A stretch of 21,054 bases of DNA from a virus. Location: positions 1 through 21,054 of the IMG/VR virus record IMGVR_UViG_3300046005_002772; one strand, 5' to 3'. Of this stretch, positions 657 through 20,070 are shown one piece after another. A program made the position numbers and the translations under genes. The notes under the pieces are model-generated. The model saw only the letters and a list, made by a program, of their open reading frames with translations, was not told the origin of the DNA and did no database searches. Position 1 is the stretch's first letter. Every line of letters begins with the position of its first letter.

Positions 657-1019
657 TTATTTTGAATCCAACCAGTCTCTATAATCCTTAAGATTCTCAA
701 GATTACGTTTTCCCTTTTTAGTTTGTTTTGCGTCGGTATCTAAAAATGGGACTAATGAAGCAGGTCCTTTAGGATGAAAAGGGGGTATAACTTTTGCTTC
801 TATAGTTCCTATGTTAATAGCAGATTCATCTACTTTATTAGGCAAACCTTTTAATTTGGTAGTAGCATATGCTTCAAGCTCCTCTTCGGTCATACTTTTG
901 GAAAGTGCTATTATGGCTTTTCTATATAATGGGTTTATGTCACTTTTCTTTAATTGCCCTGTTTTTAAAGCATAAGCTTGTCCCATTAATCTCTGTTGTC
1001 CTTTACTTTTCGCTGGCAT
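657..1019 (-). CDS. DUF3008-like protein
   Basis: 120 residues. The N-terminus MPAKSKGQQRLMGQAYALK, followed by a helix-rich stretch with SMTEEELEAYATTKLKGLP at about residues 42-60, matches the pattern I associate with the DUF3008 family: MPAKSKAQQR-type start, a Mxx(K/E)-rich helix, then (T/K)KxKGLPxKV. That family is small, basic and found in many phages and some bacteria; its function is not established. The C-terminal 50 residues (PPFHPKGPASLVPFLDTD and a Lys-rich tail) go beyond the usual domain and are not recognised. The ATG is clear, 12 bases after the stop codon of no gene but directly downstream of the gene ending at 1032. The assignment is from memory of the family consensus and needs a profile search. 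Confidence 0.75.
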   Translation of the reverse strand: MPAKSKGQQRLMGQAYALKTGQLKKSDINPLYRKAIIALSKSMTEEELEAYATTKLKGLPNKVDESAINIGTIEAKVIPPFHPKGPASLVPFLDTDAKQTKKGKRNLENLKDYRDWLDSK

Positions 1020-1031
1020 AATTATATATAT

Positions 1032-1328
1032 TTATTTTACCTCTAGCCAATTTGGCTCGAATTTTTTAACCATATCTCCATGTATTAATTGAGGAACGCC
1101 CGGTTTATACCATTCATTAACAACGTATATGCAATTAATATCACCATTTTTATTTTCGGTTTCCACTATTTCTACTATATCATAACTTTCCCCTCTCATT
1201 CCAAGGGAAGGTATAGATACGGTAGAAATAGTTCCTATTATTGGCATTTTTGTAACATCTCCTCCACTAGTTACTAGTGGTTTAAGATCCTCGTTTATAA
1301 AATCTACAAATGTATTAATATTTTTCAT
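1032..1328 (-). CDS. Hypothetical small protein with capsid-targeting-like N-terminus
   Basis: 98 residues, unknown. The N-terminus MKNINTFVDFINED is the clearest example here of a T4-like capsid-targeting peptide: a short basic start, Phe residues three apart, then I-N-E followed by Asp, matching the (L/I)-x-E cleavage rule of T4 prohead protease gp21. The remainder reads as a small all-beta domain (IIGTISTVSIPSLG, SYDIVEIVETEN, INCIYVVNEWYKPG). It ends in a Trp-Leu-Glu-Val-Lys tail and could be an SH3-like barrel. The ATG lies 12 bases after the U-tract of an intrinsic terminator (1341-1373), leaving little room for its own promoter, so it is probably expressed by read-through. Confidence 0.72.
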   Translation of the reverse strand: MKNINTFVDFINEDLKPLVTSGGDVTKMPIIGTISTVSIPSLGMRGESYDIVEIVETENKNGDINCIYVVNEWYKPGVPQLIHGDMVKKFEPNWLEVK

Positions 1329-2070: not shown

Positions 2071-2616
2071 TTATCTGCTTATTATTATTGATTTTTTATT
2101 TGATCCTTCCTGAACTGACCAATTTATTCCAAGTTCTGAATTTACCATCGATTTCATATATTCGATATATGTTTCTTTACCTCTATAATCCAGATTTATC
2201 TGCATTTCATCATGTATACTAGAAACTTTTGGGTTTGATGAAAGATAATTATCTATGCATTTACAAACATATTTAACAAATCTTGATAACTCGCTTCCAG
2301 CCATTCTAAATTTATCCTCATTAGGTTCAGGTATATCCTCCTTATCTACTGCTATATCCTCGATCACTTCAGAAGATAATGGATTAACGTTTATAACACA
2401 ATATGAATTTTTTGCTCCCTCTATCGGACCATTCATTGAATATTTACCTATTATCAAATGATATCCACTTTGGTTTTCTGCATCTCTATCATCAAGATTA
2501 AAGAAATAGTGATATACATCTCCCATTTTTTTCATCAAAAAAGGAGATGAACCAAATCCATCAGATTCGTTGACATCTTTTGTAAATTCACTAAATGATA
2601 CTATTTTCTTTTCCAT
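2071..2616 (-). CDS. Hypothetical 181-aa protein with capsid-targeting-like N-terminus
   Basis: Unknown function. The N-terminus MEKKIVSFSEFTKDVNES belongs to the shared peptide set: FxxF followed by V-N-E and Ser. This is one conservative change from the (L/I)-x-E rule for T4 gp21 cleavage. After that comes a beta-rich region (VYHYFFNLDD, GYHLIIGKYSM, NSYCVINVNPL), an acidic linker (DIAVDKEDIPEPNEDKF) and a helix (GSELSRFVKYVCKCIDNYL). The C-terminal part ends in a strand SIIISR. There is no signal peptide and no catalytic motif. The start codon is 5 bases after the ligase-fusion stop, in a TATTTATA/A-rich leader, so the two genes are translationally close and probably co-transcribed. Confidence 0.72.
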   Translation of the reverse strand: MEKKIVSFSEFTKDVNESDGFGSSPFLMKKMGDVYHYFFNLDDRDAENQSGYHLIIGKYSMNGPIEGAKNSYCVINVNPLSSEVIEDIAVDKEDIPEPNEDKFRMAGSELSRFVKYVCKCIDNYLSSNPKVSSIHDEMQINLDYRGKETYIEYMKSMVNSELGINWSVQEGSNKKSIIISR

Positions 2617-2621
2617 TTTAT

Positions 2622-4598
2622 TTATATTTGTTGATTCTTAGACTCTTCAGTATTTAATATTACTGTTTCATCTATAGCTTTTCCTTTTATGCTGGATAAT
2701 AGGAAACTATATATATTCGAAACCGCTAAAGGAACTAGTTTTTTAAATCCAAGAAAATCCTCATCCATTAATTTTTTTCTAACATCAGATCCATTCGTAG
2801 TTCTCGTAGTTTCTATTATCTCAACGTCTTCAGGTAATTCATTACCTATTTTTTTAAGATATTCACATTGTTTTTTGTAATCATTAGCTACATCTTCGCC
2901 TACCCCTATTAATTTAGGGATAAACCCCAAACCTTTAGATCTGCTATATATAGGTCCAAGTAATCCACGCTCGACTGTAAAATATCCTATTATATTTTCG
3001 GAATTTTCTCTAACCACATTTTCCATATACTTAGCAATCATATCCTCGTTAAATGGGCATTTATCAGACTTATTGTATTTATTATAAACAACAGCAAGTA
3101 TACATGGCAAGTCATTTTTTTCATTGACAGCAGTAACCATTTTTAGATGTCCATTATGAAATGGCTGAAATCTACCTATTAGTATATTAACAGGAACCAA
3201 ATCTTTAGAATCTCCTTCAACTTTATCGATTTTTGGCAAATTCTTAGTAGGCTTCTTTTTGGTATCAACTGTTTCCAATGATGATATGAAATCATTATAG
3301 GAATAGAATGGATCATCCTCTCTATCCTCTGCTTCAGTTGTTAAATAATCAACTTTTTTAGGAGATGTATTAGTTTTCTTGAAATCTAAAAACGATGAAA
3401 CCGATTCTTTCACAGCTTCGTCTTTTCTTTTAGAAACGAGTTCCGCTATTTCTGATACCAATATATTGAATTGATCTATTATACCAGATGTTATTATGCC
3501 GCTTGCCCGTTTTTTCATTTTTCTAAATGAATTCAATATCAATTTAAATAAGGATTCGAAAGATTCATCCATTTCTAGATATTTTATTACTCTTTTATCT
3601 TTTATTAAATCCTTATTAAGCCTGAATTCTTCTCTCTTTAGATATTCGGGTTCCTGAAAATCAGCACCTTTGTATTTATAGAGTTGTATATCTAAAAATT
3701 TAGAAAATACATCAGATATAAATGAGATGTATCTTTCGTCTTCGCTATTTCCTCTGATATTAAAAGATTTTATCCCCTCTTCCAAAATAAAATTCATAAC
3801 ATCTAGTATAGTTATTCCTAAAAAATCACTAGGTTTTTCGTTCAATTTTTTCTTATATCGATCTTTTACCATTTCACTAAAAACAGGATCAACCATTTTA
3901 GCAAGGATCGCATCTTTCTCTATTGAATCTCCCTTTTCGAATTTGAAAACTATACCTTCTATGGGTTTATCTAAATCCTCGTTTAAAGCTGAAGTTTTAG
4001 CTTCGGGATTTAATACACCTATCATATATCTAACAAAACTTTTTGTTTTATACTCAGATACTAATTGATCCGATGGGGTTTTTAAAAAATCAAGAATTAG
4101 GTTTTTTTGTTCATCTAATAAAATCCCCTGGAATATTATGGTTGGTCTTTCTATTCCAATTATATCTGCCCACTCATTCAATGTATCTTTATCTACTATA
4201 GTGGAAACGCTTTTTTCATTTTTAGCATGTATGTATGATATAATTAAATTATTTTTAGGCAATCTATCATATTCTATCTCAACCGGTTTGTTATTAGAAA
4301 AATATTCAAGCCCGAATTTCCATCCTCTTGGTATTCTATTTAATACTTCAGGTGCTAATGATTCGATATAATTAATAGGTTTTTCGTAATATTTCATTAA
4401 TGTTCTATCCACTAATGTAATTGGATTTCTTTGATCTCCCTTATAAAAATTAAAATTACCTGTTTCTATATCCCTTTCAAAAATAAATGCAGATCCATCC
4501 ATTTTTTCATTGATCGTCACATAGGAATTAAAGAGATTATCCATAAATTCCTTTCCTTTTTTATTATAAATATCATATAAATGACTAATTCCTGACAT
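2622..4598 (-). CDS. Ligase-type nucleotidyltransferase fused to NMN-adenylyltransferase domain
   Basis: 658 residues with two enzyme domains. Residues 1-250 have the covalent nucleotidyltransferase motifs of ATP-dependent RNA/DNA ligases: motif I EKMDGS (31-36, Lys32 as the AMP acceptor), a motif III-like WKFGLEYF (93-100), motif IV IEGIVFKF (213-220) and a motif V-like Lys (LAKMVDP, 232-238). Residues 250-450 are helical and charged, with no recognised domain; there is no OB-fold that I can see. Residues 468-640 are a nucleotidyltransferase of the HxGH class. They contain GRFQPFHNGH (475-484), as in archaeal-type NadM/NadR NMN adenylyltransferases, and a later TTNGSDVRKKL (600-610) matching the ISxTxVR motif. 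Predicted activities are nucleic-acid end adenylation or joining, and NAD synthesis from NMN and ATP. It sits between capsid-targeting-like genes, downstream of UvsW. Substrates cannot be read from sequence. Confidence 0.88.
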   Translation of the reverse strand: MSGISHLYDIYNKKGKEFMDNLFNSYVTINEKMDGSAFIFERDIETGNFNFYKGDQRNPITLVDRTLMKYYEKPINYIESLAPEVLNRIPRGWKFGLEYFSNNKPVEIEYDRLPKNNLIISYIHAKNEKSVSTIVDKDTLNEWADIIGIERPTIIFQGILLDEQKNLILDFLKTPSDQLVSEYKTKSFVRYMIGVLNPEAKTSALNEDLDKPIEGIVFKFEKGDSIEKDAILAKMVDPVFSEMVKDRYKKKLNEKPSDFLGITILDVMNFILEEGIKSFNIRGNSEDERYISFISDVFSKFLDIQLYKYKGADFQEPEYLKREEFRLNKDLIKDKRVIKYLEMDESFESLFKLILNSFRKMKKRASGIITSGIIDQFNILVSEIAELVSKRKDEAVKESVSSFLDFKKTNTSPKKVDYLTTEAEDREDDPFYSYNDFISSLETVDTKKKPTKNLPKIDKVEGDSKDLVPVNILIGRFQPFHNGHLKMVTAVNEKNDLPCILAVVYNKYNKSDKCPFNEDMIAKYMENVVRENSENIIGYFTVERGLLGPIYSRSKGLGFIPKLIGVGEDVANDYKKQCEYLKKIGNELPEDVEIIETTRTTNGSDVRKKLMDEDFLGFKKLVPLAVSNIYSFLLSSIKGKAIDETVILNTEESKNQQI

Positions 4599-4647: not shown

Positions 4648-5190
4648 TTATTTAATTTTCTTGTAATATCTATCCATGATATCATTTATGTAATCACTAT
4701 AGATTTCCTCGTCTTTATTTTTTGGCGAAGTTGGCGAATAATTCTTACCAAAATATTTTTTACCTTTTAATACTCCTGATTTGTAGAATTTTTCAGCATC
4801 AGAATCTTTTACATCCTTTTTCTTTTCTATGTGCTCTGCTTTCCATTTTTCGATTATCTCCTTTTTCTTAGAATTGAATTCTTCCTTCGATAATTTTCCA
4901 TATGATTTAAAATCTCCGTCAGGACTAAGCAAATCTACTATAGCAGCACTTCCTGATGTTACAGTTTTTAGTGCTAATGGTAATAGATTACTTCCACTTT
5001 TTATTGTAGATAACGGATCATTTGGATCTGAATAATAACTAGAATATTCACCAGCACCTAATTCACTACTAACCCTATTGTCTATATTATGTAGCCAACC
5101 AGTAAATCTGGTTTTACCTGTATTTTCATAATATTCGGCTTCGCTTAATATTAAATTTCCAAATTCCTTGAAAGTTGCTATTTTTCCCAT
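4648..5190 (-). CDS. Hypothetical 180-aa protein with capsid-targeting-like N-terminus
   Basis: Unknown function. The open frame extends to a TTG at 5220, but I place the start at the ATG ten codons later (5188-5190). That choice gives MGKIATFKEFGNLILSEA, which aligns with the N-termini of the genes at 1032 and 2071: FxxF, then L-S-E followed by Ala, a match to the T4 gp21 (L/I)-x-E cleavage rule. The body has a Ser/Tyr/Pro-rich region (GEYSSYYSDPNDPLS) and one short hydrophobic stretch (NLLPLALKTVTSGSAAIVDLL, about residues 70-90) that may be a membrane-active or buried helix. The C-terminal half is strongly charged (Lys/Glu/Asp). It follows UvsW by about 35 bases on the same strand. Confidence 0.7.
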   Translation of the reverse strand: MGKIATFKEFGNLILSEAEYYENTGKTRFTGWLHNIDNRVSSELGAGEYSSYYSDPNDPLSTIKSGSNLLPLALKTVTSGSAAIVDLLSPDGDFKSYGKLSKEEFNSKKKEIIEKWKAEHIEKKKDVKDSDAEKFYKSGVLKGKKYFGKNYSPTSPKNKDEEIYSDYINDIMDRYYKKIK

Positions 5191-5226
5191 TGTTAAAAAG
5201 TGTTTTTCTATATATCGCAATAATAT

Positions 5227-6765
5227 TTAAAGTTTGACGTTAAATATCTTATACTCGAAGAGTTCCTTGTTATAAATTGCTATCCTATCCGCTGAATGCT
5301 TCATTAAGTAATTTTTATACTTTTTAGTACTAAAGTCATCCACAAAATCTATGATGTTAACTTTTTCCTTACCCTCCATTTTACGCATTCCCCTACCTAA
5401 ACTTTGTTTTATAAGAATTTCGCTTTTATATGATTCGACAAGAAATATATTATGTAAATTATTTATCGATATACCAGTAGAAAATGTACCATATGTTGCT
5501 ACTAAAACTTTATTCGTTCCCGTAGCCATCCTTTTTTTATATTCTTCCCTTAATGGTTCACTGGTATCACCATCAACATAAAATACTTCTCTTTCCCCGT
5601 TAATTTCTCTTAGTAGATTCCATATTTGCTTTCCGTATTCCTCCTTAACCGATTGAAATAATACCAAAGAATTCTTTGATGTTTTATTTATAAAATCTAC
5701 AATGAAATTAAGTCTCTTTTTGCTTTCTATTACTAATTTTCTTTCTATATTATATAATTCAGTCCCTTCTATATTATTATCATTTACTTTAAGCTCTGCT
5801 AATTTTTCTTTGTATATAGGATCTAGCCAATCCATGACAACAATCTTGATAGATACCGGGGTAGCATAATTATTTTTAAAAAGAAAATTGGGAGATATCT
5901 CCATTATCAATGGACCAAGAAATTGTTGTATAGTTAAATAATCAGCAGTTCCTCTTTTCGTAAGCGTTCCTGTAAGTCCGAATCTCCATCTAGCACCCAT
6001 ACACTGAGATACTATTTTCTTTATTGATGTACAATTGGTAAAATGCGCTTCGTCAACAAAAACAGCATCAACCTCAGCAAAAAAATCAGGCTCTCTCTTT
6101 ACTAATGACTGGAACGTTCCTATTATAATATCACATCCATCCTTTAATTTACTTCCCCCGCCTATTTGTTGTATTTTTACTCCTATTTTATCAATACCGT
6201 ATTCCTCGAAATCATCCTTTCCCTGAAAAACTAAATTACTATTTGGTACAATCATTAATATCTTTCTAACTAACCCTTTAGATTTTAAAAAAGCAAATAC
6301 CATAAATGATATAAGGGTTTTCCCAGAAGATGTAGCTATTTCTGATATAGAATATCTATATTTTATTATCTTCCATGCGGTTTCTATTTGGAAATCTCTA
6401 GGCATTTTATCAGGATCCCCATTAATACCATCAATGAAAAAATTATTAGCCCATTCTGTAAAATATTCCAGACTATAATCGTTAATAATTATTAGATCAA
6501 GTCCATCTATATCCATTTCTATTTTATATTCCTCCCCTATATGCAATACTTCCTTCCAAAGTCCTACTGGAATTTTCCAGAAAGGTCCTCTTTTGTCAAC
6601 AAAGCATATATCGCCATTCCATATTTTTTTCTTTACTAATGGATGGAAGAAATGATTATGGATTTTTTGGGTTAATGATAATTCGATTTGTTTTTTTTCT
6701 ATATCGTTTTCGAATTCAGTCAAAATAATCCATTGTTGATCTTCAGAAAGTTTAAATTTTAACAT
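5227..6765 (-). CDS. uvsW: UvsW-like superfamily 2 helicase
   Basis: 512 residues against about 500 for T4 UvsW, an ATP-dependent helicase that branch-migrates Holliday junctions and unwinds R-loops, switching replication to the recombination-dependent mode. Motifs seen: an N-terminal UvsW-like accessory region (1-115, including NPxxxxKxWNGD-like HPLVKKKIWNGD at 41-52), PRDFQIETAW (122-131) as the substrate/Q-like motif, Walker A TSSGKT (145-150), motif II DEAH (238-241) and motif III GLTGTL (263-268). In RecA-like domain 2 it has VLFQSV, ATYGTFSTGISI (423-434) and motif VI QSLGRGMRKM (454-463). The local string IGGGSKxKDG before the GTFQS segment matches T4 UvsW closely. It lies directly downstream of UvsY (11-base gap), the same pairing as in T4. 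Confidence 0.95.
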   Translation of the reverse strand: MLKFKLSEDQQWIILTEFENDIEKKQIELSLTQKIHNHFFHPLVKKKIWNGDICFVDKRGPFWKIPVGLWKEVLHIGEEYKIEMDIDGLDLIIINDYSLEYFTEWANNFFIDGINGDPDKMPRDFQIETAWKIIKYRYSISEIATSSGKTLISFMVFAFLKSKGLVRKILMIVPNSNLVFQGKDDFEEYGIDKIGVKIQQIGGGSKLKDGCDIIIGTFQSLVKREPDFFAEVDAVFVDEAHFTNCTSIKKIVSQCMGARWRFGLTGTLTKRGTADYLTIQQFLGPLIMEISPNFLFKNNYATPVSIKIVVMDWLDPIYKEKLAELKVNDNNIEGTELYNIERKLVIESKKRLNFIVDFINKTSKNSLVLFQSVKEEYGKQIWNLLREINGEREVFYVDGDTSEPLREEYKKRMATGTNKVLVATYGTFSTGISINNLHNIFLVESYKSEILIKQSLGRGMRKMEGKEKVNIIDFVDDFSTKKYKNYLMKHSADRIAIYNKELFEYKIFNVKL

Positions 6766-7457: not shown

Positions 7458-8522
7458 TTATGCATTTATGAAATATCCTATATCTAATATATCATTAGTA
7501 AAATATTGATCAAGTCTTTTAATTTTTTTCCCTAGCTTTCTAAGGTGAATCACTAAATCATTTAAATCCCATTTTCTATTTTTTGTTATATTATTTTCTT
7601 CCAAGAATTTTCCCCAGTTAAAAACTGTTTCGCCATTACCTAAAAGCTCCATGCTTTTGCCTATTCCTGCTTTATCCCAATCGTACCAATATCTTTTATT
7701 CTCTATATCAAAGGGAAACCTATTTTCTATTGAACACATTCCAACCGAATTTGGCCAAAGCCACGAATCCATTGGCCCTTCAAATACAGTAACCTCTAAT
7801 CCAAAATCTAAATCTCCTATACCAAATACATTGGATATAGGATCAACGCTTCTTGCTTTTTCTAATATTTCTATATCCTTAATTCCTAAAAGCTTTTCAT
7901 ATATCCCGCTTAATTTATAAGTTAGATATTTGGAAGATCCATTTATGGAATGCATATTTCTTACTTGCAGACCCAGTATTTTATTAGATGGGGTTAGATT
8001 AAAAAGGAAAAGTTTTTCCTTTTTTGGATCCCAAGCAAATTTTCTATCTGGTTTTTGATATCTCCTTGTTACATATCTATTGATAGAAGAGCCTGATATC
8101 TCCTGCAATCTAAGTTTAGCCATAAATGCATCTCTATCTATTAATATATCGCTTATGTCATTATCAAAGAAAAAACTAATATCAATTTTTCCATATGATG
8201 ATTTATGTTTAGCATGATTCGTATCGATTATAGATTTCATCTCATCCTTTTCGTCGTCGCTAAATGTATCATACACAGAAAAATCCTTAAACATATTAGT
8301 CGAATTCTTATAGATACCACAACCCCCGTTATAGCATTTATAAGCTAATGTATCAAGATAGAAATTACCTCTCTTCTTTTTACCATCCTTAGAATCGCCA
8401 CAATATGGGCAAGAAAAATTTAAACGATTACCAGCTTTATAAATAATTTGCTTATTGTGATCATTTTTAAATTCCTTTGCAAGAATAATTCTTATACTTT
8501 CCTCTAATTTATCGATTTGCAT
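7458..8522 (-). CDS. T4 gp61-type DNA primase
   Basis: 354 residues (T4 gp61 is 342). Primases of this class synthesise RNA primers for lagging-strand replication with the gp41 helicase. The N-terminal zinc-binding domain has CPYC (Cys38, Cys41) and CYNGGC (Cys63, Cys68), spaced as in a CHC2/zinc-ribbon primase. The Toprim core has the acidic motif FEGPMDS (247-253, Glu248) and the second metal motif WYDWDKAG (279-286, Asp281, Asp283). Between them lies the RNAP-like basic region (VTRRYQKPDRKFAWDP, 151-166). The C-terminal DLNDLVIHLRK and DQYFTND are unassigned. The gene follows gp32 but is separated from it by an intrinsic terminator 13 bases before its ATG, so its expression probably depends on read-through or a promoter inside gp32. 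Confidence 0.9.
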   Translation of the reverse strand: MQIDKLEESIRIILAKEFKNDHNKQIIYKAGNRLNFSCPYCGDSKDGKKKRGNFYLDTLAYKCYNGGCGIYKNSTNMFKDFSVYDTFSDDEKDEMKSIIDTNHAKHKSSYGKIDISFFFDNDISDILIDRDAFMAKLRLQEISGSSINRYVTRRYQKPDRKFAWDPKKEKLFLFNLTPSNKILGLQVRNMHSINGSSKYLTYKLSGIYEKLLGIKDIEILEKARSVDPISNVFGIGDLDFGLEVTVFEGPMDSWLWPNSVGMCSIENRFPFDIENKRYWYDWDKAGIGKSMELLGNGETVFNWGKFLEENNITKNRKWDLNDLVIHLRKLGKKIKRLDQYFTNDILDIGYFINA

Positions 8523-8585: not shown

Positions 8586-9554
8586 TTATAGATCACCGTA
8601 TAAATCTTCTAAAGAAGAAGATGTATTGCTTACAGCAGGTGCTGGTGCTGCTACATCCTTATCATATGATGTCTCTGTAGATGAACTATAGATATCCTGT
8701 GAAGAAGTAGGAGTACTTGCTCTTTCAGTTACTACTGCAGCAGGTTGAGTTCTAGCATTAGATACACCACCAAGTATTTCATTTACTACTCTTTGTTCAG
8801 GAACACTATTTTTAATAGTAGTTATGATTTTATCGTTAAGTGTATCATCCCAATCTTTATATTCATATGATAATAGATTTTTTGGACCTTCATTTACATA
8901 TGCTATAATAGATGCCATATCTTCTTTTGTTTTTTGCATAGGTTTACCACCTACTTTAATTGGCGATTTACCTTTATCCCCAACAAATGAACAAAGATCG
9001 TAATTATTCCAATCACCTACTTTTCTAACTTTCAAAGAAAGTTCTCTACCATCAAAAAGATCAAAAGGATTACAAGTTTCACCATATGTAGGTTTTATCT
9101 GTGCTTCTATTAAATCGTTTATTTTTTTACCGAATTTAAATATTACCATTTTACCCTCTAATTCCGGACGATGTTTATCCTCAATTACTTGAACTATTGC
9201 ATAAAAATCTTCTTTTCTGGAAAAAGATTTTGATAATTCCTGATCTGCAGCAGAATGCGAATTCTTAAGTTTCCAGTATAAATCTTTTAATATAGATTTT
9301 TTACCAACCGTTGATGGGCAATCAGCAGTATAGCTGTCTCCTGTTACAGGATCTTTTAAAAATACATAAAATTTATGGATTTTTGATTTTTCTGGATTTT
9401 CCGCATTTGGTACGAATCTAATTAAAGATGTATAAACCCCGTCTTTTCCGTCTTCTGGATATGGTTTATAAAAATCATCCTTATCCCCTGATGTAATTGC
9501 TTTTGTTACGAATGCCTCTGCATCCAAATTGAAAATGTCTAAATTGTTGCTCAT
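8586..9554 (-). CDS. gp32-like single-stranded DNA-binding protein
   Basis: 322 residues (T4 gp32 is 301). It coats ssDNA and coordinates replication, recombination and repair. T4-family features: N-terminal region (1-30), then the OB-fold core from about 38 with YTSLIRFVPN and HKFYVFLKDPVTG (60-72). The conserved CNPFDLFDGRELSLKVRKVG follows (161-180), then DLCSFVGDKGKSP. A Ser/Thr/Ala/Pro-rich linker leads to an acidic C-terminal tail (SSSLEDLYGDL) typical for binding partner proteins. Odd point: the T4 zinc-binding ligands (His64, Cys77, Cys87, Cys90) are not all present. Only Cys79 is near the expected place and there is no CxxC, so the zinc site is probably lost. The leader is long, A-rich and carries three 11-bp repeats. 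Confidence 0.93.
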   Translation of the reverse strand: MSNNLDIFNLDAEAFVTKAITSGDKDDFYKPYPEDGKDGVYTSLIRFVPNAENPEKSKIHKFYVFLKDPVTGDSYTADCPSTVGKKSILKDLYWKLKNSHSAADQELSKSFSRKEDFYAIVQVIEDKHRPELEGKMVIFKFGKKINDLIEAQIKPTYGETCNPFDLFDGRELSLKVRKVGDWNNYDLCSFVGDKGKSPIKVGGKPMQKTKEDMASIIAYVNEGPKNLLSYEYKDWDDTLNDKIITTIKNSVPEQRVVNEILGGVSNARTQPAAVVTERASTPTSSQDIYSSSTETSYDKDVAAPAPAVSNTSSSLEDLYGDL

Positions 9555-9931: not shown

Positions 9932-10594
9932 ATGAAAACATATATAGGAATAGATTTTAGTTTAAATTCTACAGGAATTTGCATCATCAGGGAAGAAAAA
10001 ATAAAGGTAATCTCCATATTTAAAACTGATGTAATAATAGACAACATGTTTACCAAACCTGGATTTTTTAAGGAGCTTAAAAAATGTCAGGATCTTAATA
10101 TGATAATTTCAAATAAAATTGTATGGGATACAGATGATTATGCGGAAAAAGAAAGATATAAAATAGTATCGTTTATAAAATTAGCGGATTCCATATTAGA
10201 ATCTATTATGAATGATATTGATACAAATGATGATGTATTTGTTGCTATAGAAGGATTAGCATTTGGATCATCAGGAAATTCGTTGATTGATATATCGATG
10301 GCAACAGGTATATTAAGAAGAGAAATTATAACTACTATGCTAAATAATAAAAGTGAAAATTTCTATGTTTTTCCTCCAACTACTGTAAAGAAATTTGCGG
10401 GTAAAGGCTCGTTTAAAAAAATAGATATGTTTAATTCATTAATAGAATCAAATAATCCAGATTCAGAATTTATAGACTTCATTGGAAAAAATAAAGGTTT
10501 AGTAACTACACCAAAGGGAATAGTTAAAAAACCAGTAGAAGATATAGTAGATTCGATTTGGATTGCTAAGTTATTAAAGAATAGATTAGATTAA
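9932..10594 (+). CDS. RuvC-like Holliday junction resolvase
   Basis: 220 residues, the only plus-strand gene. RuvC-family enzymes are dimeric RNase H-fold nucleases that cut four-way junctions using two metals. Motifs: MKTYIGIDFSLNSTG with the first catalytic Asp8, VFVAIEGLAFG with Glu107, PPTTVKKFAGKGSFKK (148-163, the RuvC-typical P..VKK...G.G.K DNA-contact stretch) and PVEDIVDSIW with Asp204 and Asp207 as candidate remaining ligands. No signal or membrane segment. It is AT-rich like its neighbours. It faces gp32 and shares its intergenic region, so both could be co-regulated. Its stop is 2 bases from the stop of the convergent gene at 10597. T4 uses the unrelated endonuclease VII (gp49) for junctions, so this resolvase type differs from T4's. 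Confidence 0.9.
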   Translation: MKTYIGIDFSLNSTGICIIREEKIKVISIFKTDVIIDNMFTKPGFFKELKKCQDLNMIISNKIVWDTDDYAEKERYKIVSFIKLADSILESIMNDIDTNDDVFVAIEGLAFGSSGNSLIDISMATGILRREIITTMLNNKSENFYVFPPTTVKKFAGKGSFKKIDMFNSLIESNNPDSEFIDFIGKNKGLVTTPKGIVKKPVEDIVDSIWIAKLLKNRLD

Positions 10595-14825: not shown

Positions 14826-16802
14826 TTATGGGTAATAGTCAATGGGTACATGTCCACCCGGTGTATCTGTTTCATCAGCATCTACTGTATATGATAGTGC
14901 TCCTTCTGATATAATAACAGATAAAGAATAATCGATAGTTGATATGGATATAGGATCAGGACCATCAGATGTTATTAAAATGTATGGATCACCGTATGTA
15001 AGGACACTAACATCCATAGTATCACCAGGACTAAAGTATAATATTCCGCTTCCACCCGGAGTAGAAAGAACTGTTATTCCGTTTTTATTTATGTTCAAGC
15101 TTCCACCATACGGAGCAACAGCAGCACTAATGAATCCCCAATATACAGGGATAATTGGAGGGGATGGCTGTATAAATTCATCGGTAAAACTTATTTGTCC
15201 TGAAAACCCACTACATGTTTTATAGAATAATCTAGGCAATGATGTTATTGCATTGATTCTCGGTATCCAAATTAGATCTATATATTGGCATGTACTTGGT
15301 ATAAATGATCCTCCTGGGGAATTATTAGTAACCACATTATATGTTGTCCCTGTGGGAAAATCCCCGCTAAATATTAAACCTTGTATATAACGTCTAGATG
15401 TATCTGTTGACAATGAATTAAGAAATATTCTATATTGTATAGATTTACCATCACTATAAAGAGGATAAAGATTTGTTGATATGCTACTTGGTATTTTTAT
15501 GTATACCCCTCCGACAACTGACGTATAACTAGTAGGGGTAATTATAATATGATTGGAATCCCACAATAGAGGATTTGATATATCTATGACATTACCCAAT
15601 GTTGAAAAGTTATCGCTCAGATATTCTCTAGAATATACGTTATTAGTCCCCAATCTGATTTCCTTTGTTTTCTTTACATGGTAGAAATATGGTCCAGCAG
15701 TTCCACCTGGACTACCCCCGATAGATCCAAATACAGTTTGTGAATGATTGCCGCTATTCACACTACCCTTAACATTACCTGATAATACAGGATATGACGT
15801 TCCGTCACTAAATACAAATGATTTATTTGTATCTGTACCTGTATTACTAGAAATACCAACACTAGTGCCTGGGAGATATCCAGGATTACTTGGAACTATA
15901 TCAAGAGAATATATCCCAGGGGTTCCTGATGATATAACAATATTGCTATTATGTATGAAATTATCAGTATCGAATTTTACATTTAAAGAATTTATATTAA
16001 AAGATCCACCAGTTCCTATTATTGCAGAAGAACCAAGTATAAAATTTCCATTACCGTTTATATTTAAAGATTTACTATTAATATTTATATTATTGTTATT
16101 TAATATAATAGCAGCTAAATCTGTATTTATAGAAAGTTTTAGATATGCATTAATATCAAAAGATGCATCAGAATTAAATATCAAAGAAGTTGATGTTCCT
16201 AATTCTGACCAATAAAATGATGGCACATTTCTGGATACAGATGACGTTTTACCAAAACTCATTATAGGTCTAGATATTTGATCATTAGTAGAAACAAGAA
16301 CCTTGCTATTATTCGGATTAGCTATATCAGGGGTTAAGTAGCTATCACCTATAATAAGAGACAATTTACTTGGACTTGTTATTCCAGTACTTTTAAAACC
16401 TACGACATATTTGTTTGATGTACCAGCTGGTCCACCTATATAGGAATAGGAATCAAAGAAAACCGAACTCGAAAAATTATATCCGGAATAATTCCATCCT
16501 GTGGCACCTAGTGTTTTTATTGGTCCCTCAGCTAACGATGTATCTATCCATACATCATCAATGATAGATAATGTACTTAGAGGTTCACCAGGTTGACTAA
16601 ACCAATTACTTCCTCTCTGCCCGGTAACCCCAGCTGCACCTCTACGCCCGGCAGGAGCAGAAATACCGATTTTTCCTCTAGAACCTATATGACCCATCGG
16701 TCCAACTGCAAAAGATGATATCTGATTAAAATTATAGTTAATTTTATCAATTATTACTTCTTCCGAATCTCCATTAAAGATATATTTAGTATTGAAATGC
16801 AT
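14826..16802 (-). CDS. Collagen-like fibre protein 3 (last of three paralogues)
   Basis: 658 residues. N-terminus MHFNTKYIFNGDSEEVIIDKINYNFNQI, then a collagen-like stretch of Gly-X-Y (Gly34 to about Gly64, with one interruption), then SNWF (Trp67) and a DDVWIDT motif (82-88). These three elements are shared at almost identical positions with the genes at 16809 and 18523. The middle (about 90-430) is Ser/Asn/Gly-rich and variable. A C-terminal module with IDLIW...LFYKTCSGFSG matches the end of the other two paralogues. Unlike them it carries about 118 extra residues after it (541-658), beginning DEFIQPSPPIIPVYWG and ending HVPIDYYP, an added beta-rich, Ig-like module. Probable trimeric tail or side-fibre protein involved in host contact. 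Confidence 0.8.
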   Translation of the reverse strand: MHFNTKYIFNGDSEEVIIDKINYNFNQISSFAVGPMGHIGSRGKIGISAPAGRRGAAGVTGQRGSNWFSQPGEPLSTLSIIDDVWIDTSLAEGPIKTLGATGWNYSGYNFSSSVFFDSYSYIGGPAGTSNKYVVGFKSTGITSPSKLSLIIGDSYLTPDIANPNNSKVLVSTNDQISRPIMSFGKTSSVSRNVPSFYWSELGTSTSLIFNSDASFDINAYLKLSINTDLAAIILNNNNININSKSLNINGNGNFILGSSAIIGTGGSFNINSLNVKFDTDNFIHNSNIVISSGTPGIYSLDIVPSNPGYLPGTSVGISSNTGTDTNKSFVFSDGTSYPVLSGNVKGSVNSGNHSQTVFGSIGGSPGGTAGPYFYHVKKTKEIRLGTNNVYSREYLSDNFSTLGNVIDISNPLLWDSNHIIITPTSYTSVVGGVYIKIPSSISTNLYPLYSDGKSIQYRIFLNSLSTDTSRRYIQGLIFSGDFPTGTTYNVVTNNSPGGSFIPSTCQYIDLIWIPRINAITSLPRLFYKTCSGFSGQISFTDEFIQPSPPIIPVYWGFISAAVAPYGGSLNINKNGITVLSTPGGSGILYFSPGDTMDVSVLTYGDPYILITSDGPDPISISTIDYSLSVIISEGALSYTVDADETDTPGGHVPIDYYP

Positions 16803-16808
16803 ATATTA

Positions 16809-18497
16809 TTAAGATATTGAATTATATGTTGCTAGAACACCACACTTAGGATATAATAAATTCCCACCCCATGCAGAATAGTAGACTTTAAACCATCTAT
16901 TGGTTCCACCAGTTCCACCAGTTCCCGTTATATTTATTATAGTAAAATCTACGCTTGATGCATATTCATGAACTCCATTTTCGTCAATAAGTTTTGCATA
17001 TGAATAATTTGTGGATAATGAATTATTAGGTGGATCCAATTGGTTATCGGAAGCATTTAAACCAATGTAACCAAACCAATCACCAGTAGTTCCCGTAGCA
17101 TCAGTTTTATTACTTCTTACAGTAAAACTTATGCTTTCATTTGGTTCTAATAGATTCAACCAACCCTTATTATATCCACCAGTACCACCAGTTGCAGGAA
17201 CCCATAAAGATATTCCTCTTTCACCAGCCAATGCAGAACCAGATTTTTCTATTACATAATCAATTCCCCCATCAACCCAGAAACAATTTCCATTCGTGGT
17301 TGTTGATACTGAAGGAAGAACAGTTATCCAATTTATATTAACAGAATCAACAACGGAAGATACAGTCTGTGTTATAACTTGAGGATCTAGTATATTATAA
17401 ATTATATTATCCATATAAATATTACCATTACCATATAATCTAAAAAAACTATTCTGTCCTGGCTGCTTAGTTTCAAATAATATACTGTTTTCGTTACTAG
17501 GTAAATTATAATAATATCTAATATTACCAGAAAATGCATTTGTTGATATTACCTCAAGTGGATAATTATTTCTAGTTGATGGTGTAGTAGAAATTATGGA
17601 TGTCGATAAATCAAATTTATTAGAATATATAATATTTTTAGATGAAAATAATGCTATACCTGAACCAAAATTGAAATTTATATCACCAGAACAAAATGCA
17701 CCGAAATATCCGGTCGAATATACATTAAAACCTGTGGATTTTAAGGATATTGCTTTATATGATGAAGCTATATTAAGATCCCCCGATGGTATATCGATCT
17801 TAAACGAATCCCCCATATCTAATTTTAATCCATATTTACCCCTATCTGACAATAGTCCCTGATCCCACGAAAATTTAGGATTTTTTGTATAAATATTACT
17901 ATCATTACTATATGGAAATTTAGAAAATTCTAATATATTTTTAAGAGGGTCCGGTCCGGTAGGTCCAGAAATTGATATTACAAATTTACTATATTGCGGA
18001 TTTGGTATATTATTAAGATTTGATATTGTACCTGATACTAAATCAGAATCACTTATAACCACAGTATGATCTATTGGCATATATGATGATAATAGATAGC
18101 CATATTTATCAGTAGTCCCCATAGAATTGGATATAGGTCCAAATACATTAAACAAATCTACTGATTTTAAATAGAATCCATAATAAGACCAAACACCAAG
18201 ATTAAATTGATATACTATATTATTACTATCAGTTTTTATCCAGAAATCACCGTTTATGCTAGAGGAAACTGTTGGTTCATTTGGACCTATTCTCCAGGTC
18301 GTTCCACGAATTCCCTGATTTCCATAAGAACCTCTTGGACCGGTTTCTCCTGTATATCCGTCTTTTCCTTTAGGACCAATAATACCATATGGACCCCCAC
18401 CAAATCTTATAATCTCCGGAAAGTTATAATTTAGTTTATCTATAAAATTCTTTTGAGAATCTCCTTTTTCTATTTTTAATAATTTTAATTCCGGCAT
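16809..18497 (-). CDS. Collagen-like fibre protein 2
   Basis: 562 residues. N-terminal anchor FIDKLNYNFPEII (18-30) is followed by a near-perfect collagen-like run with Gly at 35, 38, 41, 44, 47, 50, 53, 56, 59, 62 and 65, then TTW (Trp68) and GDFWIKT (83-89). The middle is Ser/Asn-rich. The C-terminal module has NESISFTVRSN, DFTIINITG and FKVYYSAWGG, related to the ends of the flanking paralogues. Two short motifs containing TGGTGG occur (TGGTGGYNKGW and TGGTGGTNRW), encoded by imperfect triplet-like DNA repeats near 16910 and 17180. It lies 6 bases upstream of the next paralogue and 25 bases downstream of the previous one. Probable homotrimeric fibre; the ligand is unknown. Confidence 0.8.
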   Translation of the reverse strand: MPELKLLKIEKGDSQKNFIDKLNYNFPEIIRFGGGPYGIIGPKGKDGYTGETGPRGSYGNQGIRGTTWRIGPNEPTVSSSINGDFWIKTDSNNIVYQFNLGVWSYYGFYLKSVDLFNVFGPISNSMGTTDKYGYLLSSYMPIDHTVVISDSDLVSGTISNLNNIPNPQYSKFVISISGPTGPDPLKNILEFSKFPYSNDSNIYTKNPKFSWDQGLLSDRGKYGLKLDMGDSFKIDIPSGDLNIASSYKAISLKSTGFNVYSTGYFGAFCSGDINFNFGSGIALFSSKNIIYSNKFDLSTSIISTTPSTRNNYPLEVISTNAFSGNIRYYYNLPSNENSILFETKQPGQNSFFRLYGNGNIYMDNIIYNILDPQVITQTVSSVVDSVNINWITVLPSVSTTTNGNCFWVDGGIDYVIEKSGSALAGERGISLWVPATGGTGGYNKGWLNLLEPNESISFTVRSNKTDATGTTGDWFGYIGLNASDNQLDPPNNSLSTNYSYAKLIDENGVHEYASSVDFTIINITGTGGTGGTNRWFKVYYSAWGGNLLYPKCGVLATYNSIS

Positions 18498-18522
18498 TTT
18501 CTATTTTATATTATTGTATATA

Positions 18523-20070
18523 TCACAGAATGAAAGATCCTCCTAAGCAAGAACCGCCATCTATACTATATGCTTTATAAAAGACAGTAGTTACCGATCC
18601 CGAAATATTTTTTGCTATAGTTAAATCAACTACTGGAGAAGTACTAGGCAAAGAAACCATAGATGTTATAGATCCAGCTGTTATACCCTTACCTATAAAC
18701 GAAAATCCCTCATATGTATATGCAGTTGGACTGCACACAACGGTAATTTCTATAGATTCACCATTAGCTAATCCGTTTCCAGCCCAAGAATTTATAGCTT
18801 CGTTATAAACTCCGATACCAAGTACGCCAAAAAATCCAGGAGTTACATATTGAGGTGGGCTTATTACAATAACATTTCCACTATCCAATACTGCCGAGTA
18901 GGAATCTACACCAGGTTTGGATATTAAATACCATACTTCAGCACCAGGTCCGGTAGAAACCAACGGAGTTCCGACTGGATATGATATGCCGCTTTCTATT
19001 TTTTTGGTCTTTATTTTACCCTTAGTATCTATAAAAAATTCTTTATCGCTCTGAGTTTCAAAAAGAACATTATATGTTGAATGTGAAAGCGTATTAAATG
19101 TATCCCCGGTTCTTGTTGTTTTAATCGCTCCTGTTACCCCAGCTGATAGATATACAGCATTTAATAAATTAGTATTTAATGTAGGTGCAATACGTACAGG
19201 AGAACTAAATCCAGCAACTCCTCCAGTAATATTAATAAATTGACTCTCTATGCTAAAATTATTACTTATTCCAGTATTTAAATTAAAACCACCAGTAGCA
19301 AATATTCCAGATGAGCTATCGGTACTGTAATCAATATCAATATAATCATTAGATCTTAAGTTTAATACATTACAAAGAACTTCAAATCCGCCGGATGCTC
19401 CGATTACAAAAGAACCATCAGGAATCTGTAACATTATATTATCATCAGATAATCCGGTATTTTTCCATGCCCAATATGGGTGTCCCTGATAATCAGTCAA
19501 TGTGCCATCCTCCAAATCACTCTTAGAAAATTCTAAAAGATACCCAGAATTATTATAGCTATCAGTGGAAATAATGAATTTAGCTAATGGCTCATTAATA
19601 ACTCCAGATTCAAAAACTTTATCAGCTACTATAAATAAATAATTTTCCAAAGCATCCTGATTCATGTGTATAGCACCACCAGTATTACCATTCAAGAAAT
19701 AGGATTCATCATATCTAAAAACACTCCCACTCGGGGCTAGATTATACCCAGTAGCTTCCCAGCCAGTTTCAGTAAACGTATTAATATCTCCAGTGTTTGA
19801 ATCTATCCAAAAGTCATTTTCGACTATGGCATTCCCTATGCCCGTTGGCCCACTAATATCGATAAACCATTTGCTTCCTCTTGTTCCAGGATTCCCAGTA
19901 ATACCAAGTTTTCCGCTATTACCTATACCACCATCGGATCCAGTTGGACCAATATCTCCAATAGTACCACCATGCATTTCTACTATCTCATCAAAATTAT
20001 GATTGATTTTATCTATTATTCGTGATTCTGTGTCATTATAATCAAATGAGCTTATATTAGTTATTGGCAT
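18523..20070 (-). CDS. Collagen-like fibre protein 1
   Basis: 515 residues. Anchor IIDKINHNFDEIVEM (18-32), Gly-X-Y run with Gly at 35 to 65 in exact register with its neighbour at 16809, SKW (Trp68) and NDFWIDS (85-91). The variable middle contains IDIDYSTDSSSG and other Ser/Gly-rich strands. The C-terminal module is GESIEITVVCSPT, VDLTIAKNISGSVTTVFYKAYSIDGG, close in layout to the other paralogues. It ends SCLGGSFIL. It starts immediately after the stop of the large structural gene at the window edge and is the first of the three fibres in the transcript. Shared ends with a divergent middle imply duplication and then diversification of the receptor-contact part. Confidence 0.8.
   Translation of the reverse strand: MPITNISSFDYNDTESRIIDKINHNFDEIVEMHGGTIGDIGPTGSDGGIGNSGKLGITGNPGTRGSKWFIDISGPTGIGNAIVENDFWIDSNTGDINTFTETGWEATGYNLAPSGSVFRYDESYFLNGNTGGAIHMNQDALENYLFIVADKVFESGVINEPLAKFIISTDSYNNSGYLLEFSKSDLEDGTLTDYQGHPYWAWKNTGLSDDNIMLQIPDGSFVIGASGGFEVLCNVLNLRSNDYIDIDYSTDSSSGIFATGGFNLNTGISNNFSIESQFINITGGVAGFSSPVRIAPTLNTNLLNAVYLSAGVTGAIKTTRTGDTFNTLSHSTYNVLFETQSDKEFFIDTKGKIKTKKIESGISYPVGTPLVSTGPGAEVWYLISKPGVDSYSAVLDSGNVIVISPPQYVTPGFFGVLGIGVYNEAINSWAGNGLANGESIEITVVCSPTAYTYEGFSFIGKGITAGSITSMVSLPSTSPVVDLTIAKNISGSVTTVFYKAYSIDGGSCLGGSFIL

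Follow-up and report, generated by a model that had tools for sequence, protein, structure and literature searches.

A conserved phage fusion of RNA-ligase-like and NMNAT-like modules whose disordered linker resembles T4 capsid-targeting sequences

Why should one viral polypeptide carry both a ligase-type nucleotidyltransferase and a nucleotidyltransferase of the NMN adenylyltransferase kind? The window, that is, the whole 21,054-base virus record analysed here, has a minus-strand gene of this composition. The original prediction was that a single polypeptide might couple nucleic-acid end repair with NAD restoration, or use NMN/NAD chemistry directly in end adenylation or capping. Its premises proved sound: the gene is one 658-codon open frame (658 aa), recovered without internal stops by the genome search, and the motifs lie where they were read (EKMDGS 31–36, WKFGLEYF 93–100, IEGIVFKF 213–220, AKMVDP 233–238, GRFQPFHNGH 475–484 and TTNGSDVR 600–607). 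Profiles and predicted structures likewise bear out the assignment of a ligase-superfamily fold and an HxGH nucleotidyltransferase. Since the motifs of both domains are conserved across 75 full-length members, they are not due to chance, and the ligase-NMNAT fusion is real and conserved. What the two domains do together is a different matter: we think it probable that the gene encodes a T4-type head-packaged polyprotein, which would be cut into separate ligase and NMNAT enzymes. In the full-length model (pLDDT 74.8, pTM 0.49) both modules are well predicted, and the features are collected in Table 1.

Table 1. Features of the fusion gene and its neighbours in the window.
Feature	Residues	Position in window	Strand	Basis
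Whole gene: ligase module, CTS-like linker, NMNAT-like module	1-658	2622..4598	-	open frame and 257 IMG/VR relatives
RNA-ligase-type nucleotidyltransferase domain (predicted)	1-245	3864..4598	-	PF09414, model, VIA, Foldseek
All-helical domain (predicted)	246-392	3423..3863	-	model; structural matches barely reach it
Disordered linker with conserved short motifs, proposed capsid-targeting/cleavage segment	393-467	3198..3422	-	pLDDT, conservation
VKES, proposed prohead-protease site [IV]-x-E↓S	396-399	3402..3413	-	conservation, capsid site, T4 rule
SFLDFKK, aromatic-x-x-aromatic CTS-like element 1	402-408	3375..3395	-	F403 and F406 100% conserved
YSYNDFISSLETVD, CTS-like element 2	432-445	3264..3305	-	F437 94%, I438 91%, E442 94% conserved
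HxGH nucleotidyltransferase, NMNAT-like	468-640	2679..3197	-	PF01467, phrog_395, profile, VIA
Variable tail	641-658	2625..2678	-	alignment, pLDDT < 50
Downstream gene, 181 aa, N-terminal signal IVSFSEFTKDVNE↓SDG		2071..2616	-	sequence, signal scan
Upstream gene, about 180 aa, N-terminal signal MGKIATFKEFGNLILSE↓A		4648..5190	-	sequence, signal scan
98 aa gene, CTS-like start MKNINTFVDFINE↓D		1032..1328	-	by eye; regular expression missed the start
Homologue of SSCSM1_93 (annotated virion protein, cyanophage S-SCSM1)		657..1019	-	40% identity, 62 residues

The gene content of the window, named after PHROG hits, is T4-like: it includes a UvsW-type helicase (5227–6765), a primase (7458–8522), a gp32-type single-strand binding protein (8586–9554) and a RuvC-like resolvase (9932–10594). 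Further along, at 14826–20070, three fibre-like proteins follow one another, with collagen-like G-x-x stretches close to their N-termini.

Residues 1–245 have an RNA-ligase fold in the predicted structure, and their conserved motifs make them a candidate ligase. Modelled separately with a wider alignment (pLDDT 89.6, pTM 0.84), the module adopts the nucleotidyltransferase fold of the covalent ligase superfamily. Its best structural match is T4 Rnl2 1s68 (VIA Z 11.8, rmsd 3.6, 190 residues); the ranking descends from T4 RNA ligase 2 through other RNA ligases to DNA ligases, and Foldseek agrees (2hvr, E 5.4e-8). In Pfam, PF09414 (RNA_ligase) is matched by 30 of the 35 alignment members, with a best E of 1.6e-7; the window protein alone gives no PF09414 match. 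Because the module's profile found no match among PDB sequences, the fold assignment rests on structure prediction and PF09414. The nucleotide-binding lysine of motif I (KxxG/KxDG) lies in EKMDGS, and the catalytic motifs are represented by K32 (I), E98 (III), E214 (IV) and K234 (V). Of the 75 full-length members, 69 have K32, all have E31, G35 and S36, 73 have E214 and 71 have K234, which is R in the other four.

With T4 Rnl2 and other Rnl/REL/Trl1 ligases, the module shares the nucleotidyltransferase fold, motifs I and IV and the first motif V lysine, yet identity to them is 10–15% and two Rnl2 positions differ. The KxK of the Rnl2-family motif V is replaced by KMV at 234–236 (T4 RnlB K225 aligns with K234, and K227 with V236), and R55, an essential residue of Rnl2, corresponds to G54. 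The helical domain that follows is also unmatched: most alignments to solved ligases, including Rnl2, stop near residue 243–245, before its helices (258–274, 286–309, 335–343, 345–357 and 371–389), which are mostly predicted with high pLDDT.

The C-terminal module looks like an HxGH adenylyltransferase of the NMNAT kind, NMN being its putative substrate. PF01467 (CTP_transf_like) matches residues 472–528 (Pfam, E 2.1e-5), phrog_395 covers residues 469–628 (PHROG, E 4e-11), and the family profile of the module reaches the NMNAT 1f9a (E 1.1e-6), so that the sequence profile favours NadM. The predicted Rossmann-type nucleotidyltransferase fold combines the NadM-type elements HNGH (481–484) and NGSDVR (602–607, with N for the usual S), and H481, G483 and H484 are kept in 65, 72 and 72 of the 75 full-length members, respectively. 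The model scores alike against NadD, NadM/NMNAT and PPAT (phosphopantetheine adenylyltransferase; VIA Z 13–15.7), hence the acceptor cannot be deduced from the fold. An NMN adenylyltransferase fold is shared with KVP40 NadM/NatV and the jumbo-phage NadV-NadM salvage route (PMC9503650), and a NadV-like NAPRTase is present in five of eight relatives, whose records may be incomplete. KVP40-type NadM is joined to Nudix, whereas the NMNAT-like module of the window protein is joined to a ligase module. We know of no head-targeting signal in KVP40-type NadM.

The window copy itself departs from its family. It has G54 where 67 of the 75 members have R, Y505-N506-K507-Y508 where most have HPGH or YPGH, V570 where 66 have R, and N602 where 65 have S. 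Because R54, the HPGH loop and R570 are absent, this copy may be partly inactive, and its activities are doubtful. Several family-conserved residues are thus missing in both of its domains.

The new point of this analysis is the disordered linker between the modules, with its targeting-like motifs. Disorder is predicted from pLDDT values below 50 at 391–402 and 411–464 of the full-length model, and mean conservation is lower in the linker (0.52) than in the ligase domain (0.77). Nine linker residues, E398, S399, F403, F406, E422, F437, I438, E442 and D445, are each 91–100% conserved in the alignment. The pattern [ILVM]xES occurs at the VKES column in 29 of 35 members, spelled VNES or INES in many of them, against a background of 0.157 per 100 aa. 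T4 gp21 cleaves behind L/I-x-E, and in the IPIII propeptide it is chiefly residues 4 and 7 that determine targeting (PMC9026906). With VKES and SFLDF, the linker combines an aromatic-x-x-aromatic core with an [LIV]-x-E site, and in sequence it looks like T4 capsid-targeting sequences and prohead-protease sites. The signals in common with T4 IPI-III and Alt, whose CTS is cut by gp21 (PMC9026906), are aromatic-x-x-aromatic and [LIV]-x-E↓[A/S/G]; [IVL]-x-E sites are also present in the tail of near relatives. T4 internal proteins, however, carry their signal at the N-terminus, while that of the fusion would lie mid-chain between two enzyme-like modules, with cleavage site and aromatic pair in the opposite order to T4, the site coming first; the window protein begins MSGISHLYDIYNKKG, with no targeting signal there. 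The cargo differs as well, as the fusion consists of a ligase-like and an NMNAT-like enzyme. Two further points speak against a T4-type reading: the conserved glutamates E422 and E442 do not match L/I-x-E, and an internal signal is unusual among T4 internal proteins. The motifs could instead serve to bind a partner protein.

Neighbouring genes carry signals of a similar kind. In the window, both genes flanking the fusion carry a signal in the regular-expression scan. For the upstream gene, the ORF program lists a TTG start at 5220, an ATG at 5190 being likelier, and its probable counterpart in G001 (370946–371494) has a similar signal. In two relatives (L037 and L064), the ligase-NMNAT protein continues at its C-terminus into a homologue of the downstream, signal-bearing gene. 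Across relatives, the signal is found in 28 of 44 upstream neighbours (Fisher p 1e-21) and 21 of 42 downstream neighbours (Fisher p 5e-14), compared with 49 of 849 other genes of the same loci; these adjacent-gene counts are not independent events because the phages are related, and the downstream count is a lower bound because many second-clade downstream frames begin at an internal ATG. In one 434-kb relative, of which 400 kb were read, 31 of 540 frames begin with the signal (aromatic-x-x-aromatic, then [LIVM]-x-E-[ASGDN]), against 1.6% of internal 40-mers.

Other neighbours recur. Window-clade relatives have a signal-bearing pol-beta-like gene (IGSIGKK..TSGDLDIG; L008 7060–7980, L041 6631–7545) directly upstream of the fusion or one gene off, a gene that is missing there in the window. 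In several branches a second ligase-like gene (EKTDGQ ... EGLVFKY ... YKLTG; L082 6733–7998, L087 6704–7969, L157 4562–5833) stands directly upstream and has its own targeting-like start. No informative family was matched by either the pol-beta-like or the second ligase-like neighbours, and the pol-beta-like assignment is a lead at the level of motifs.

The machinery that such signals would call for is present in the relatives: a T4-type gp21 protease and a gp23-type capsid protein were each found in eight of the eight tested, while neither was seen within the 21-kb window, a genome fragment. Where a T4-like propeptide should end, the N-terminal region of the capsid protein reads SLNE↓SAGAY, identically in six relatives; the capsid frame was readable in these six of the eight genomes, and at the remaining two loci the strand examined had no complete frame. 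By analogy with T4, the capsid protein is probably cleaved at LNE↓S. In the relatives' prohead-protease records L089–L094, the gp21-type protease frame runs on into long tandem Y-S-x-Y-[LV]-A-E repeats, which resemble a T4 targeting sequence with its cleavage site.

These data bear on the possibility that the fusion acts, without being packaged, as a bifunctional enzyme synthesised in the infected cell, which would pair RNA repair (e.g., of anticodon-nuclease damage) with NAD restoration and whose linker would be a tether with docking motifs. The predicted RNA-ligase and NMNAT folds, the conservation of both active sites in most of the fused family and the NadV-like NAPRTase of the relatives, which recalls the known NadV-NMNAT salvage route, are all in line with it. 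Yet a separate Rnl1-type ligase exists in seven of the same eight phages, head-targeting and cleavage signals mark the linker and the flanking genes, stand-alone NMNAT homologues bear the signal and are reported in virions in the passages cited below, and NMNAT is swapped for other cargo. We thus regard an unpackaged bifunctional enzyme as unlikely.

The family distribution adds to this picture. Querying IMG/VR with an alignment yielded 257 relatives, on contigs of up to 434 kb; 80 of them were retained, and most of these carry the complete fusion. Additional queries reached further branches, and a search of IMG/VR with a single sequence returned no relatives. The fusion is not unique to this phage. 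PHROG 455 spans a DUF6267 protein and an NMNAT within one profile. In agreement with the original prediction, to which no characterised phage enzyme combining the domains in this order was known, no description of an RNA ligase-NMNAT fusion was found in PMC texts, a search outside which most subscription papers fall.

The two modules part company in several ways. In L068, HxGH is lost and the ligase lysine retained, while in L081, L082 and L085 Gln replaces the ligase lysine and the NMNAT GH is retained (GRFQPFTEGH); such independent decay of the active sites argues against coupled catalysis. In L121, NMNAT has its own gene, starting MNHFKTFEQFIFE↓A; L157 pairs the ligase module with a different domain of 500 residues, and its NMNAT is encoded in the next gene. 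L081, L082 and L085 add a third module behind LLTFNDFI..E, and other phages combine this ligase module with unrelated cargo; the C-terminal cargo of L082, L086, L121, L153, L157, L164 and L190 matched no PHROG and nothing above the Pfam cut-off. Independent loss and exchange fit enzymes that are released from a common chain and work separately, and are not what a coupled enzyme would lead one to expect. Coupling of end repair and NAD restoration within one polypeptide, as originally envisaged, is thus not supported by modules that decay independently, are exchanged and occur in separate genes, and the use of NMN/NAD chemistry in end adenylation or capping finds no support as coupled chemistry. 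A coupled enzyme whose ligase half draws on NAD, or forms an NAD-type cap, while its NMNAT half regenerates NAD from NMN has nothing in its favour beyond the juxtaposition of two domains; as ATP-dependent RNA ligases rank first in the structure comparison, the active sites are lost independently and the modules are found in separate genes, we judge it very improbable. The data are compatible with both activities reaching one and the same host cell.

A PD-(D/E)XK-like motif is visible by eye in some of the C-terminal cargo domains. A ligase-like gene of L121 (3998–5218) has an apparent intein-like segment (CYDLTIDNFSRYFANNILVHN ahead of the TDGQ motif) and is followed by a frame resembling a GIY-YIG homing endonuclease (5265–6011). 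In a single record, L079 (8001–8423), the frame of the fusion is interrupted 141 residues in, and later parts of the gene are still recognisable.

Module exchange also raises the question whether the ligase-like module serves chiefly as a structural part or scaffold of the head core, with which different cargo enzymes enter the prohead, and whether its catalysis is secondary or lost. We grouped 100 representatives by NMNAT presence and motif residues: the motif I lysine is kept in 44 of 51 with cargo and missing from all 49 solitary modules found in other huge phages, which likewise all lack the motif V lysine although they are clearly homologous. The ligase fold may therefore be structural in some lineages, and the variable cargo would suit a scaffold. 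For the fused family, however, the retention of the motif I lysine and the near-invariance of motifs IV and V in the window clade, which a scaffold would not need, make this reading quite improbable; moreover, the solitary group is one related set, so that the loss may represent a single event or a few.

We thus return to a packaged polyprotein as the reading that we find probable. The linker would act as an internal capsid-targeting segment, and a gp21-type prohead protease would cut it after [IV]-x-E during head maturation, so that the virion would hold and inject two separate enzymes. T4 itself injects Alt and internal proteins together with its DNA, and the likeness of the fusion to these proteins includes the gp21-type protease and gp23 capsid of its relatives, packaging and injection being what we infer. 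The likely purpose would be to protect the host cell early in infection, ahead of phage gene expression: the ligase module would seal RNA ends left by host nucleases, and the NMNAT-like module would make NAD from NMN. Since the relatives mostly also have an Rnl1-type ligase, and many a NadV-like enzyme, the packaged enzymes would be an early supplement. A broader statement, that T4-like huge phages pack modular polyproteins of an RNA-ligase-like module and exchangeable cargo, which are cut and injected as an RNA-repair/NAD kit, is put forward tentatively and may well not hold in this form.

The closest precedents for head targeting are cyanophage NMNAT-like proteins (annotated 'cytitidyltransferase'/NMNAT; phrog_395, phrog_3041; S-SCSM1 QFG06348), in which an HxGH-type enzyme and a T4-like signal stand on the same chain, as in P-SSM4 (MKKFSAFLKE↓A), S-SM2 (MKSFFQFLSE↓A) and S-SCSM1 (MKSFLQFLKE↓A). 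They differ from the fusion in being stand-alone genes with an N-terminal signal and no ligase module on the chain, often preceded by a DUF6267 gene; among 44 distinct genes following cyanophage DUF6267, 36 have an NMNAT motif and 30 a T4-like signal start. Unlike the fusion, whose packaging is proposed, some of these proteins are reported from virions: mass spectrometry detected those of S-SCSM1 (PMC9602691) and S-CREM2 (PMC10665884) in virion preparations, and S-CBWM1 and S-SZBM1 are also named in this context (PMC10665884). The passages on NMNAT-like proteins in PMC9602691 and PMC10665884 caution that detection possibly reflects carry-over, and do not mention a targeting signal.

The signal would offer a sequence-based reason for the recurrence of NMNAT-like proteins in cyanophage virion proteomes. 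If the linker works as proposed, head-packaged enzymes would be recognisable by in-chain signals as well as by N-terminal ones. If the polyprotein reading is true, huge phages of a large family would enter the cell with RNA-ligase-like and NMNAT-like enzymes already made, and the countering of nuclease- and NAD-depleting defences could precede any phage gene expression.

Other arrangements of these modules are visible at the level of motifs. The profiles phrog_455 (DUF6267 and cytidyltransferase) and phrog_27149 (Vibrio phage Va1) span a ligase-like KxDG protein and an NMNAT-like domain, and are related to the fusion by motif only. DUF6267 proteins (L276 1351–2277, L277 1062–2264, L281–L360) contain ligase-like KWDGAPA, EGFVAI and LKLVD, and in most cases an NMNAT gene comes after them. 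Homology of DUF6267 to the ligase module was rejected, the profile match not being significant (hhalign probability 0.3%), and comparison of DUF6267 with PDB sequences gave no meaningful match; since no profile match links it to the ligase module, DUF6267 is kept as a motif-level lead. In Moby, Va1 and possibly X1 (L280 785–2992, L279 1484–3747, L006 3138–5477), NMNAT lies in a cassette, its partners being, by their motifs, a ligase-like KxDG protein and a PD-(D/E)XK-like protein. Va1 also appears, again by motifs, to have a separate ligase-like/NMNAT fusion of about 484 aa.
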